Virus record (IMG/VR): IMGVR_UViG_3300025141_000305
Span: 1 to 37,303 of that record
DNA from: a virus
Strand: one strand, 5' to 3'
Length of the DNA: 37,303 nucleotides
Within the stretch, counting starts at the first letter, position 1, and every line of letters begins with the position of its first letter. Shown here in pieces: positions 26,046 through 37,180 of the stretch. Under the pieces are notes generated by a model. That model was not told the DNA's origin and did not search any database. It was given only the letters and a program-made list of their open reading frames with translations. Made by a program: the position numbers and the translations under genes.

Positions 26046-26060
26046 TATGATTAGTGAATG
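26046..26060 (+). promoter_or_regulatory. -10 element giving a leaderless whiB transcript
   Basis: TATGAT at 26046-26051 ends six bases before the ATG at 26058, the distance expected between a -10 box and the transcription start. No ribosome-binding site is present, so translation probably begins at the first base of the mRNA. No convincing -35 is seen. Confidence 0.55.
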
Positions 26061-26288
26061 CTTGACGAAAAGTGGCGCACTAAAGCTAATTGCCTCGGTC
26101 AGCCAACCGAATGGTGGTTCCCTGAAGTCGGGGAAAGGATAAGCCCGCAAGCCGCTGAAATCTGTGGGGGTTGTAAAGTTAAGAAGGAATGCCTCACTTT
26201 TTCCCTCTGGCCATTAGAACAGGGGATTTGGGGCGGCAAAGGGGAGCGGCAAAGAAGGCGCTACAGGGAGAATTTGAAAAAACCGTGA
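26058..26288 (+). CDS. whiB: WhiB-family Fe-S transcription factor
   Basis: The 76-residue product has the four WhiB cysteines, Cys12, Cys36, Cys39 and Cys45, expected to bind a [4Fe-4S] cluster. It also has the conserved GIWGG turn at 56-60 and a basic C-terminal tail (ERQRRRYREN) for DNA contact. WhiB proteins are restricted to actinobacteria and their phages, so this is the best host indicator. In hosts they bind the main sigma factor region 4 and redirect transcription. A phage copy may redirect host polymerase to phage promoters or repress host genes. The gene stands alone on the plus strand inside a minus region. Confidence 0.93.
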   Translation: MLDEKWRTKANCLGQPTEWWFPEVGERISPQAAEICGGCKVKKECLTFSLWPLEQGIWGGKGERQRRRYRENLKKP

Positions 26289-26556
26289 CTCCAGATTCGA
26301 TGATATTTGATGTACCTTAGTCGATAAAAAGAAATGACCCACCGGAGCAAGCAAGCACAGTGGGTCATTTCAGTTCTGCCAATGGACTCCCTTTCGGGAG
26401 GTACCGCCCACCAGGAGGTACTGACAGAAGGAAAACACCAGATGGGATATGAAGCAAACCACAAAAGGAGTGATGGTATTTTAAATACCGCCCACCTGGT
26501 GTTAGTATTTAATTTTCAAAGACCTGTATATCTTATCGCAGGTTTCACGGAATAGC
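26289..26556. ncRNA. structured intergenic region, candidate small RNA or control element
   Basis: This gap between whiB and the converging cytosine methyltransferase gene holds no convincing gene but dense pairing. After the terminator stem come TTCTG/CAGAA (26374-26378, 26425-26429) enclosing two abutting hairpins, CTCCC/GGGAG (26387-26400) and GTACC/GGTAC (26401-26421). This is a three-way junction layout. AACACCAGATGGG (26434-26446) and CCCACCTGGTGTT (26491-26503) pair with one mismatch. GGTATTTTAAATACC (26475-26489) is a perfect palindrome. TACCGCCCACC occurs twice (26402-26412, 26486-26496). The transcribed strand is unclear. Confidence 0.4.
26332..26370. terminator. intrinsic terminator, stronger on the minus strand
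   Basis: Perfect 11-base arms AAATGACCCAC and GTGGGTCATTT flank a 17-base loop. On the minus strand the stem runs into TTTCTTTTTATC. This position would let the methyltransferase transcript include the structured gap before stopping. Confidence 0.8.
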
Positions 26557-27726
26557 CTATTTTTCAGCCATATTCATGCCATTTGTTAGTAAAGCTAAAG
26601 CGAGGAGCGCTTGTTGGGGGACCACGCCGTTACCTAACATTCTTAATTCTGCACTCCTGCTACCTAACTCACTTTCAGTGACCCAACCGTCCGGTAAACC
26701 CATCATAAATTCAACGAATCTGGGTTCTACGCCTCGGTCATCTACTGGGTATGGGGCTAATCGCCCTGTGATTTTTTCCCACCTTCTAATTGCTGGGCCA
26801 TAAGCGCCGAACTCACAGATGGGGAGTGTTCCGTCTGTCGTTTCTGCCAATCGATATTCGGTCCGTGAACTTTCGCATCTACTGTTGTCGGGGTTGGTAG
26901 TAGCTTCTCGTTCGCCATTATTGTCATCAGCGTTCCTGGGAGTATGCTCCGGTCCATTCCCTTCTGCCAATTCACGTTCTTGCCGTGGTCCTTGTAATCT
27001 CTCGCTGTTGGGGTCGGTAGAAGTTTTTGAACTTCTATGCTGAGGCTCTTTCCATGAGGTGCTGCCCTCCCTGTTGAAGATTTCTGTCTGGCCGCCCATT
27101 CCTCCCACTCCTCTATTGTTTTCCCTGCCCCCATGTCGTTCACTACTGGTGTCGGGAGTAGTACTTTCCCTATCTGATTCTCCAAGTTTTGCGGACCTGT
27201 TTCCCTGATCCAAGGACGAGTGTTTCGGGGGTCTGCCATTGCTGACCTTGGTGTCCCAAGCAAGGCAGAACCATCTCGCACGTTTATGAGGTGCTCCGGT
27301 ATCGGAAGCTCGTACAACGCCCCATCGACAGTCGTACCCCAATTCGGTAAGCGATCCAATGACGGAGGTTCCTCCGAGAGTAAGGTGTCCTGCGACATTC
27401 TCCAAGATGATGACTCCTGGTCGTAAAATGCTAATGGCGCTTGCAATGTATTGAAAGATGGCTCTGTCATCTTCTTCTCCTAATCTTTGTCCAGCTGTTG
27501 AAAACGGCTGACAAGGGTACCCAGCACAAATAATATCTACTGGTTCTATTTTTGTGAAATCTATTTTTGTTAAATCTCCTAAGTTTGGCACACCTGGCCA
27601 GTGCCTTTCAATAACTTTGGTGCAGTGTTTGTTTACTTCTGAATACCAAACCATTTCAGCGCCGAAATGTTGTTCAATAGCTAAGTCCAAGCCGCCGTAT
27701 CCGGTGCAGAATGAGCCAACTTTCAT
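26557..27726 (-). CDS. DNA (cytosine-5) methyltransferase
   Basis: The 389-residue enzyme makes 5-methylcytosine. Motif I is SFCTGYGGLD (5-14). Motif IV is GYPCQPFS with nucleophile Cys72. Motif VI is ENV (109-111), motif VIII RARWF (149-153), and motif X LGNGVVPQQA (364-373). Residues 158-300, where the target-recognition domain lies, are hydrophilic and repetitive, with units such as PDTSSER, DPNSER and NPDNSR. The same DNA encodes another protein frame (26757-27470). No restriction partner is visible. It starts by an ATGA overlap with the preceding gene. Its product could be the substrate for the dioxygenase at 34264. Confidence 0.93.
   Translation of the reverse strand: MKVGSFCTGYGGLDLAIEQHFGAEMVWYSEVNKHCTKVIERHWPGVPNLGDLTKIDFTKIEPVDIICAGYPCQPFSTAGQRLGEEDDRAIFQYIASAISILRPGVIILENVAGHLTLGGTSVIGSLTELGYDCRWGVVRASDTGAPHKRARWFCLAWDTKVSNGRPPKHSSLDQGNRSAKLGESDRESTTPDTSSERHGGRENNRGVGGMGGQTEIFNREGSTSWKEPQHRSSKTSTDPNSERLQGPRQERELAEGNGPEHTPRNADDNNGEREATTNPDNSRCESSRTEYRLAETTDGTLPICEFGAYGPAIRRWEKITGRLAPYPVDDRGVEPRFVEFMMGLPDGWVTESELGSRSAELRMLGNGVVPQQALLALALLTNGMNMAEK
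26757..27470 (-). CDS. nested overlapping gene inside the cytosine methyltransferase, LPTP-repeat protein
   Basis: A 237-residue frame on the same strand, shifted +1, lies wholly inside the methyltransferase gene. It starts MTEPSFNTLQAPLAFYD and continues MSQDTLLSEEPPSLDRLP then NWGTTVDGALYELPIPEHLI. Repeats follow: LLGTPRSA, LLPTPVVND, LLPTPTARD, LLPTPTTVD. I recognise this layout from free-standing phage proteins found with methyltransferases. The ATG has an AGGAG site at proper spacing (TTAGGAGAAGAAG before ATG). That site also encodes the conserved LGEEDD segment of the enzyme, so it may be incidental. Function is unknown; a regulator or specificity partner of the enzyme is speculation. 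Confidence 0.6.
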   Translation of the reverse strand: MTEPSFNTLQAPLAFYDQESSSWRMSQDTLLSEEPPSLDRLPNWGTTVDGALYELPIPEHLINVRDGSALLGTPRSAMADPRNTRPWIRETGPQNLENQIGKVLLPTPVVNDMGAGKTIEEWEEWAARQKSSTGRAAPHGKSLSIEVQKLLPTPTARDYKDHGKNVNWQKGMDRSILPGTLMTIMANEKLLPTPTTVDAKVHGPNIDWQKRQTEHSPSVSSALMAQQLEGGKKSQGD

Positions 27727-34263: not shown

Positions 34264-35130
34264 ATGATAAGAGTTATCCCAGTAAATAAAAAACCAACTG
34301 ATTGTGAGAAAAGGGACCGTGTCCCTGTCCCACCTGGCCGAGCACAATTATTATCAAACTGCCATTTGGTAGATTCTGAAACCGGTGAAACTTTAGCATT
34401 ACACGCTCAACTTAGTGACCCACCGGAAATCATTGCACCTATCAGGAAGTGGCTCCGTAGCTATAAAGGTTGGGCAGATGCAGGCGTGACGAAAATAGAA
34501 AGCTCGTCATCTTCAAGGCTTTCAGGTATAAAGAACGCGAATACAACTTTCGGGACTGCCCCAGCTGTGCCTCTTCGACGAAAATGGGGAGCCTCGCCAT
34601 CAAGGTTAAATCAAGAATACCCTGCCGCCGGTTACGCCCTGGAAGAACTCGGTGCGGCTTGTGCTAGGTATTTCAAAGAAAACCTACCCAAAGAATGGGA
34701 ACAGCACACAGCACTTGAAGGTATAACAAACATTCATGATGGCTGGAAGTTTAGGGACGGCGAGGTTCCTTGGACTAGCGGTATTATCAACAAAACTGCG
34801 GCTCTGCCTTACCATAAAGACGCCGGAAACGTTCCTGGTTCTTGGTCTGCGATGGTTGTTTTAAGGAAAAACATCGACGGAGGACACCTCCATATCCCAG
34901 AAATCGACGTTTGGTTAGCTTGTAATGACCTTTCAATAAGTATTTTTAGAGGTAGGGACCACCTACACGGTGTTACGCCGTTTCAAGCCAGGAACGAAAG
35001 TGCTTATCGCTACTCGATTGTTTACTATGCGAAAACCCAGCTACAAAAGGCATTAGCACCTGGTGAAGAAATAAAGCAGGCAGAACGTCGAGCGACAAAA
35101 TCAGCTGACGATGTAGTGAAGGGTGACTGA
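34264..35130 (+). CDS. TET/JBP-like 2-oxoglutarate-Fe(II) dioxygenase
   Basis: A 288-residue enzyme expected to oxidise the methyl group of a modified or normal pyrimidine in DNA. Iron ligands are His184 and Asp186 in LPYHKDAGN, and His235 in HLHGVTPF; Arg249 in AYRYSIVYYAK would hold 2-oxoglutarate. The order HxD, GGHLHIPE, HGV.P, RYSIVYY is characteristic of the TET/JBP group. Phage TET enzymes are known to convert 5-methylcytosine to 5-hydroxymethylcytosine for further modification. A 5mC methyltransferase is in the same genome and a glycosyltransferase immediately follows. A thymine-oxidising JBP function cannot be excluded. Confidence 0.8.
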   Translation: MIRVIPVNKKPTDCEKRDRVPVPPGRAQLLSNCHLVDSETGETLALHAQLSDPPEIIAPIRKWLRSYKGWADAGVTKIESSSSSRLSGIKNANTTFGTAPAVPLRRKWGASPSRLNQEYPAAGYALEELGAACARYFKENLPKEWEQHTALEGITNIHDGWKFRDGEVPWTSGIINKTAALPYHKDAGNVPGSWSAMVVLRKNIDGGHLHIPEIDVWLACNDLSISIFRGRDHLHGVTPFQARNESAYRYSIVYYAKTQLQKALAPGEEIKQAERRATKSADDVVKGD

Positions 35131-36058: not shown

Positions 36059-36507
36059 AATCTATTAAGCCCGAAACAGCTAGAAGATACCGTCAAGTCT
36101 TAGAATTAAGGTGTGCCGGTTTACCATTTGAAGAAATTGCAACCAGGACCGGCTATGCAGGAAGGCAAGGAGCCAAGAAAGCTTATGATGCCGCTTGCCA
36201 AAGGTGGGCGATTGAAACAGTCGAACAGCAACGAATTATCCAATCGGAACGACTCGATAGGATATTCACACAAGCATACCTATCTGCCAGGAATGGTGAT
36301 CTCCAAGCAATCGACAGATGCCTAAAGATCGAGAAGCGCCGAGCTGAATTGTGGGGACTCGATGCACCGAAACAACACACAGTGACCGGCGCTGACGGTA
36401 ACGCGATAGAAATATCAACAGATATCGGGAAAATCTTAGAGGACCGGATCAACTCGATAGCTAATCGCGACCCAATAGTGCTTGAAGCACACAATAAACA
36501 TGAGTGA
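36055..36507 (+). CDS. terS: terminase small subunit
   Basis: This 150-residue protein starts with a helix-turn-helix (RYRQVLELRCAGLPFEEIAT then RTGYAGRQGAKKAYDAA), followed by a helical oligomerisation region ERLDRIFTQAYLSARNGDLQ and IDRCLKIEKRRAELWGLDAP, which ends in the LWGLDAP segment common to small terminases of this group. It would recognise phage DNA and recruit the large subunit. It is two genes upstream of terL with only the methyltransferase in between. Confidence 0.78.
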   Translation: MKSIKPETARRYRQVLELRCAGLPFEEIATRTGYAGRQGAKKAYDAACQRWAIETVEQQRIIQSERLDRIFTQAYLSARNGDLQAIDRCLKIEKRRAELWGLDAPKQHTVTGADGNAIEISTDIGKILEDRINSIANRDPIVLEAHNKHE

Positions 36508-37180
36508 ATTGGCCTACCAAGATGAATATATAAAGCTATTCCACGGAGATTACCGCTCAGTTCTCCCTAGTTTGAATGATGTAGATTTTGATTGTGTCCT
36601 CCTTGATCCCCCATTTGAGACCTGGGAAACGGTCACACCTGGCCATTTCCAGGGAATACCAAAGAAGGTTGTTTTCACGAATTGGCAACATCGAGGAGTC
36701 ATTGAAAGCTATTTCGGGAAACCAAGAAGCGAGTTTGTCTGGTATTTCAAAGATGGTCGATGGGTATCTCATCGATTACCAAGGCAAACACATGAATTGA
36801 TCTACATATACGGAGAAACCGTCGAAGCATACGTTGGCGAAAAGATCGAAGATCGAACTCCCCAAAACAAAGGCAGAGGAGCAGTAGGGAAAGACACTTA
36901 CAGCACCCACATCTATAGACCCAGGGAAAGGAAAATACTGAACAGCGTCTTAGAATACCCGCGAAACAACCGAAATGGAATGGGGGCTTGGGGAAAACCT
37001 GAAAAGCTTATTCGTAACCTTTTAGAATTTGTATCGCCAGGTGTAGTCTTGGACCCTTTTGCCGGTGGCGGTTCTACGCTGACCGTAGCTAAGAAATTGA
37101 AAATGAAGGCTATCGGTATAGAGATCGACGAAAAACGATGTGAACTAATAATTTCAAGGTTGGCTGATGGAGTTGGATAA
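36500..37180 (+). CDS. site-specific DNA methyltransferase between terminase genes
   Basis: The 226-residue enzyme begins at ATG 36500, eight bases before the terS stop ends (ATGAGTGA); a TTG at 36482 is less likely. The catalytic DPPF is at residues 36-39 and the AdoMet motif DPFAGGGSTLTVA is near the C-terminus, the beta-class order. DPPF is compatible with adenine-N6 or cytosine-N4. It overlaps terL by 14 bp, so it is co-translated with the packaging machine and may mark packaging sites or protect DNA. No restriction partner is visible. Confidence 0.88.
   Translation: MSELAYQDEYIKLFHGDYRSVLPSLNDVDFDCVLLDPPFETWETVTPGHFQGIPKKVVFTNWQHRGVIESYFGKPRSEFVWYFKDGRWVSHRLPRQTHELIYIYGETVEAYVGEKIEDRTPQNKGRGAVGKDTYSTHIYRPRERKILNSVLEYPRNNRNGMGAWGKPEKLIRNLLEFVSPGVVLDPFAGGGSTLTVAKKLKMKAIGIEIDEKRCELIISRLADGVG

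Follow-up and report, generated by a model that had tools for sequence, protein, structure and literature searches.

The stretch of DNA analysed here, referred to as the window, comprises the 37,303 nucleotides of the virus record IMGVR_UViG_3300025141_000305. On its minus strand lies a gene for a cytosine-5 (m5C) DNA methyltransferase, here called alpha, and inside this gene a second ORF, here called beta, is read in the +1 frame (Table 1). A preliminary description of the DNA had claimed a 237-codon +1-frame ORF within the methyltransferase gene, and we found it at exactly 26757..27470 on the minus strand. The claimed start, an ATG preceded by a Shine-Dalgarno sequence, was confirmed in its context (AAAGATTAGGAGAAGAAGATG). 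The LLPTP-type repeats attributed to beta are present as well, although the modules number four and the repeats originally claimed mark only three of them. It was also correctly recognized that two sets of repeats arise from one DNA read in two frames: PDTSSER (27136-27156), DPNSER (26998-27015) and NPDNSR (26878-26895) of the alpha frame all overlie LLPTP starts of beta.

Table 1. Features of the methyltransferase locus in the window (positions are those of the window).
Feature	Position	Strand	Remarks
Alpha, m5C DNA methyltransferase ORF, 389 aa	26557..27726	-	motifs I-VIII, read-through linker, then IX and X
Beta, nested +1-frame ORF, 237 aa, ATG start; predicted target-recognition subunit	26757..27470	-	
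Nested ATG	27468..27470	-	within alpha codons GAT-GAC of EEDDR
Shine-Dalgarno-like AGGAG (TTAGGAGAAGAAG-ATG), 5' of nested ATG	27471..27482	-	
Beta module 1 (LLGTPRSAMADPRNTRPWIRETGPQNLENQIGKV), LLGTP version	27162..27263	-	
Beta module 2 (LLPTPVVNDMGAGKT...SLSIEVQK); cluster common to types A, B and C	27024..27161	-	
Beta module 3 (LLPTPTARDYKDHGKN...)	26904..27023	-	
Beta module 4 (LLPTPTTVDAKVHGPN...), runs to stop codon	26760..26903	-	
Alpha residues 169-295, module DNA in the enzyme frame; predicted disordered linker	26842..27222	-	AlphaFold2
Motif IX, alpha frame (RGVEPRFVEFMMGLPDGWV)	26680..26736	-	direct reading and aligned homologues
Motif X, alpha frame (MLGNGVVPQQA)	26608..26640	-	direct reading

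Profile search assigned alpha to the Pfam family DNA_methylase (PF00145, E 3.6e-39), and motifs I, IV (PCQ), VI (ENV), VIII, IX and X, which define it as a C5-cytosine methyltransferase, are all present. Beta matched no family in a Pfam profile search, and a sequence search against solved structures returned nothing credible. A match was obtained to phrog_1008 (E 1.1e-16; beta residues 7-123 against profile positions 67-179), and a second match of this profile lies in the C-terminal region of alpha. This double match was the first hint that both frames belong to one enzyme.

Roughly 150 loci were collected with tblastn and locus searches, in actinophages, in virus contigs and in genomes that are mostly actinobacterial. 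We classified 135 distinct loci by the frames in which motifs I-VIII, the LLPTP modules and motifs IX-X are read. The layout of the window, in which I-VIII and IX-X share one frame and the modules lie in the +1 frame, was found in 89 loci (type A). At 14 loci the alpha frame stops, mostly soon after motif VIII, and the modules are fused with IX-X in the +1 frame (type B). The 28 type C loci, from phages or prophages, have everything in one frame, with the modules between motifs VIII and IX of a single-chain enzyme; this is where target recognition is located in M.HhaI-like enzymes. Four of the 135 loci fall outside these types. Clustering of the modules revealed clusters common to types A, B and C, and beta is homologous to the in-frame arrays of the single-chain enzymes. 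The large module cluster 0 probably chains several specificities via single linkage, and for this reason module counts per specificity are left out. Relatives of beta beyond shadow frames, which the preliminary description had proposed to look for by protein search, were thus found both as single-chain fusions and as separate ORFs. Streptomyces phage Samy gp50 (phrog_1008), for example, is a separately annotated ORF behind a truncated methyltransferase ORF. Such phrog_1008 type B proteins contain IX-X too, whereas the window's beta does not.

A search among genomes of the same order as a Burkholderiales-type locus uncovered a further layout (type D, 19 usable loci) in Proteobacteria-type phages. 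Here alpha consists of motifs I-VIII and X, and the nested beta carries WPTP modules together with motif IX. With a type D beta as query, matches were obtained in 229 phage records, epsilon15 among them. In the epsilon15 locus (L202), which we examined closely, the sole annotation over the nested pair is a cytosine methylase, and in Komagataeibacter phage phiKX1 (L203) the region is annotated with short hypothetical ORFs only. Some loci were irregular. In L041, L044 and L128 the methyltransferase frame is broken or shifted in a manner inconsistent with types A-D, attributed to sequencing error or a recent frameshift, and L035 has a beta-like ORF with many extra modules, its motifs IX-X lying far downstream in a different frame.

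We then asked which of the two frames is selected in the module DNA. In a test on the single sequence, one protein was held fixed and synonymous codons were resampled according to the window's own usage (20,000 resamples). With alpha fixed, the nested interval contained a mean of 7.8 stops and was open in none of the 20,000 resamples; with beta fixed, the alpha frame contained 16 stops and was likewise open in 0/20,000. When alpha was fixed and the modules were considered alone (beta residues 76-237), the nested frame was open in 5% of resamples, which means that the single-sequence test rests mainly on beta residues 1-75 and that the strong evidence is comparative. For the VNDMG core of type A modules, divergence at the three codon positions of the beta frame was.11/.09/.41 (66 close pairs). 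The core in type C, where the same frame is ordinary coding sequence, gave.12/.14/.35. Since divergence in the beta frame falls mainly on the third position as it does in type C, the beta frame is the one that codes for protein in the module DNA. Identities point the same way: the type A core reaches.87 in the beta frame versus.53 in the alpha frame, and the latter does not exceed the.59 of the frame that type C leaves unused. These comparisons show that beta is conserved at the protein level in the module region. The corresponding codon-position test for type D comprised only 7 pairs and was kept out of the evidence.

The alpha frame, by comparison, is only kept open. In 89 type A loci we counted 0 alpha-frame stops, whereas 237 would be expected for the given beta protein. 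This zero follows partly from the definition of the type as having an uninterrupted alpha ORF, so that the point is the existence of many such loci despite the expectation. In the equivalent frame of type C there were 78 stops versus 105 expected. Type D showed 0 versus 188 expected, this zero likewise being given by the definition of the pair, and all of these counts were drawn from related sequences that share ancestry and are not independent, which makes z-scores too high. Codon choice shows how the frame is kept open: for the Asn of VND all type A modules (34/34) use AAC and avoid AAT, which would create a TGA in alpha, while type B modules use AAT in 8/11. The claim that both frames are conserved by dual coding therefore holds in the module region for beta as a protein; the alpha frame is there merely kept free of stops.

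The beginning of beta was analyzed separately. At the column of the nested ATG, 41 of the 44 type A loci with a suitable residue use the ATG-making NAT codon (10.5 expected), whereas 0/8 type C loci choose it, and in the columns upstream codon choice is about as expected. This pattern of codon usage shows that the nested ATG itself is under codon-choice selection. An ATG occupies the column in 46/89 type A loci, about half; in the remaining loci beta must begin at another place, possibly with GTG. GTG starts occur just as often at column 186 in type C and were discarded as start evidence. Shine-Dalgarno strength was rejected as well, as -5.9 kcal/mol is only marginally above the -5.2 kcal/mol forced by the alpha protein. 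Many type D loci have GGAG 5' of the nested ATG, in the context GGAGTATTGAAGATG. Over motifs V-VIII, which beta residues 1-75 overlap, comparison of four-fold sites between types A and C revealed no extra synonymous constraint, and in type C the +1 frame is nearly stop-free there too (2 observed versus 23 expected). Extra constraint over V-VIII was accordingly dropped as a proof of dual coding. For residues 1-75 the dual-coding claim thus found no clear support at the protein level, neither stop depletion nor four-fold sites separating type A clearly from type C, and the real N-terminus of beta could be elsewhere.

Structure predictions were obtained with AlphaFold2. For L043, a type C enzyme with one module (27 sequences), the mean pLDDT was 86.9 and the module was ordered between motifs VIII and IX (blocks of 78-91). 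M.HhaI is the best structural match for this model (VIA Z 25.1, rmsd 3.0, 253 aligned), in agreement with Foldseek. For the window's alpha (30 sequences) the core and IX-X were predicted confidently, mostly at 92-98. Residues 169-295 had pLDDT values mostly below 50 and no secondary structure. Low confidence of this kind is no proof of disorder, but D, E, K, R, N, Q, S, T, G and P together make up 83% of the segment. The preliminary description had taken the hydrophilic repeats of this segment for the target-recognition region of the enzyme. Most likely they are not, given the predicted disorder and the fact that in type C the nested-frame reading occupies that position of the enzyme instead.

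We consider it likely that the locus encodes a two-polypeptide phage C5 methyltransferase in which alpha provides catalysis and motifs IX-X and beta is a modular recognition array. A single stretch of DNA would give rise to both polypeptides. Alpha would bind AdoMet and carry out catalysis through motifs I-VIII and would also supply IX-X. Beta would be translated separately from the internal Shine-Dalgarno sequence and ATG in the +1 frame, and its four LLPTP modules would form the target-recognition array that reads the DNA. It is predicted to bind alpha and to occupy the gap between motifs VIII and IX, thereby setting sequence specificity, possibly several specificities with one per module.

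Long shadow frames are frequent in GC-rich genes, and the +1 frame over V-VIII is nearly open in type C too, so the nested ORF might have arisen by chance as the shadow of a conventional methyltransferase gene whose product has a hydrophilic linker. The nested frame, however, diverges like a protein, it has in-frame homologues in type C, and 0 alpha-frame stops stand against 237 expected; the in-frame homologues and the codon-position pattern contradict a shadow ORF, which we regard as very improbable. Even less credit is due to decay, in which a former single-chain enzyme would have had its recognition array shifted into another frame by a pair of compensating indels. Types A and C do read the array in different frames, as decay would have it, but both frames are open in 89 distinct type A loci and the nested frame is under purifying selection, and such long-term conservation of two open frames contradicts a pseudogene.

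More serious, although still unlikely, is programmed +1 ribosomal frameshifting after motif VIII, which would fuse the N-terminal part of alpha to beta and leave no separate beta. A single +1 shift would indeed turn type B into a complete single chain like type C. The type B codons before the alpha stop vary by phage, however (ATC, GGC, GAC, GAT, TCC, CAA and others), and we found no RF2-like or slippery +1 site, there being no codon in common among type B loci at this position. Type A moreover has no stop to stimulate a shift, its product would be without IX-X unless a second, backward shift took place, and the selection on codon choice acts on the nested ATG. Beta could also be a real nested protein with another role, e.g. 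regulation or stabilisation of the enzyme, as would fit its failure to match any solved structure by sequence. We hold this to be quite improbable, since the modules of type C are the very material between motifs VIII and IX and the window's alpha keeps nothing folded there in the AlphaFold2 model.

For an enzyme of two polypeptides there is biochemical precedent in M.EcoHK31I. The gene for the M.EcoHK31I beta subunit is reportedly nested in the alpha gene in another frame (Lee et al., 1995). The window's beta is similarly nested in the large-subunit gene in another frame. M.EcoHK31I (YGGCCR) is described as two polypeptides sharing the conserved motifs, the larger with I-VIII and X and the small one with motif IX, and its recognition domain is there predicted in the large subunit (PMC3404938). 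In the window motif IX (RGVEPRFVEFMMGLPDGWV) is in alpha and beta consists of LLPTP modules only. Most type D loci have the M.EcoHK31I arrangement with IX in the small subunit, and given this match it is a possibility that the recognition part of M.EcoHK31I is also in its beta. M.AquI (CYCGRG) is a C5 methyltransferase split within the variable region (PMC3404938). Its small subunit has IX-X, as in type B and unlike the window, where IX-X are in alpha. By motif layout the window enzyme is therefore neither of the M.EcoHK31I nor of the M.AquI type, although it probably works like both. The multispecific C5 methyltransferases of the Bacillus phages SPR, phi3T and rho11s reportedly carry several tandem recognition modules between VIII and IX (Trautner et al., 1996). 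The position of the modules is that of type C, but those enzymes are single-chain and single-frame, whereas the window's modules lie in another frame and not within the same chain; the likeness is one of position.

Split and nested-gene C5 methyltransferases are already known, and the window adds a new layout. In the open-licence literature, our searches turned up no account of phage recognition subunits that are nested. Whether the locus represents a widespread, mostly unannotated phage design, with a modular array nested out of frame in the catalytic gene as specificity subunit and lineages that moved repeatedly between nested (A, D), overlapping (B) and fused (C) forms, is in our view an evenly balanced question. 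If this is true, recognition modules exchanged among nested forms have to stay open in two frames, and the apparent variable region would be a read-through linker and not a recognition domain, perhaps in M.EcoHK31I too. In many phage methyltransferases, what has passed for a hydrophilic recognition region would then become a second gene, and this would explain why the recognition sites of such enzymes have been unreadable from the annotated protein. Alpha cloned alone is predicted to show no or wrong activity. With nested (A) and in-frame (C) relatives directly comparable over a long overlap, the evolution of overlapping genes also becomes testable.

Some further genes were noticed in the window. 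A TET/JBP-type oxygenase (34264-35130, plus strand; PF12851, E 3e-10) is encoded by the same phage as the m5C methyltransferase. It is a possible 5-methylcytosine oxidiser, and together the two enzymes may produce cytosine that is hydroxymethylated or modified further. Near its gene are those of a ParB-like protein (PF02195, 33624-34235, plus strand) and of another DNA methyltransferase, this one of N6/N4 type (PF01555, E 1.4e-16, 36482-37180, plus strand). A gene for a WhiB-type transcription factor (PF02467, E 4.8e-13, 26058-26288, plus strand) adjoins the methyltransferase gene and points to an actinobacterial host. Between the WhiB gene and the end of the methyltransferase gene, at about 26400-26510, a short repeat TACCGCCCACC(A/T)GG was noticed by eye.
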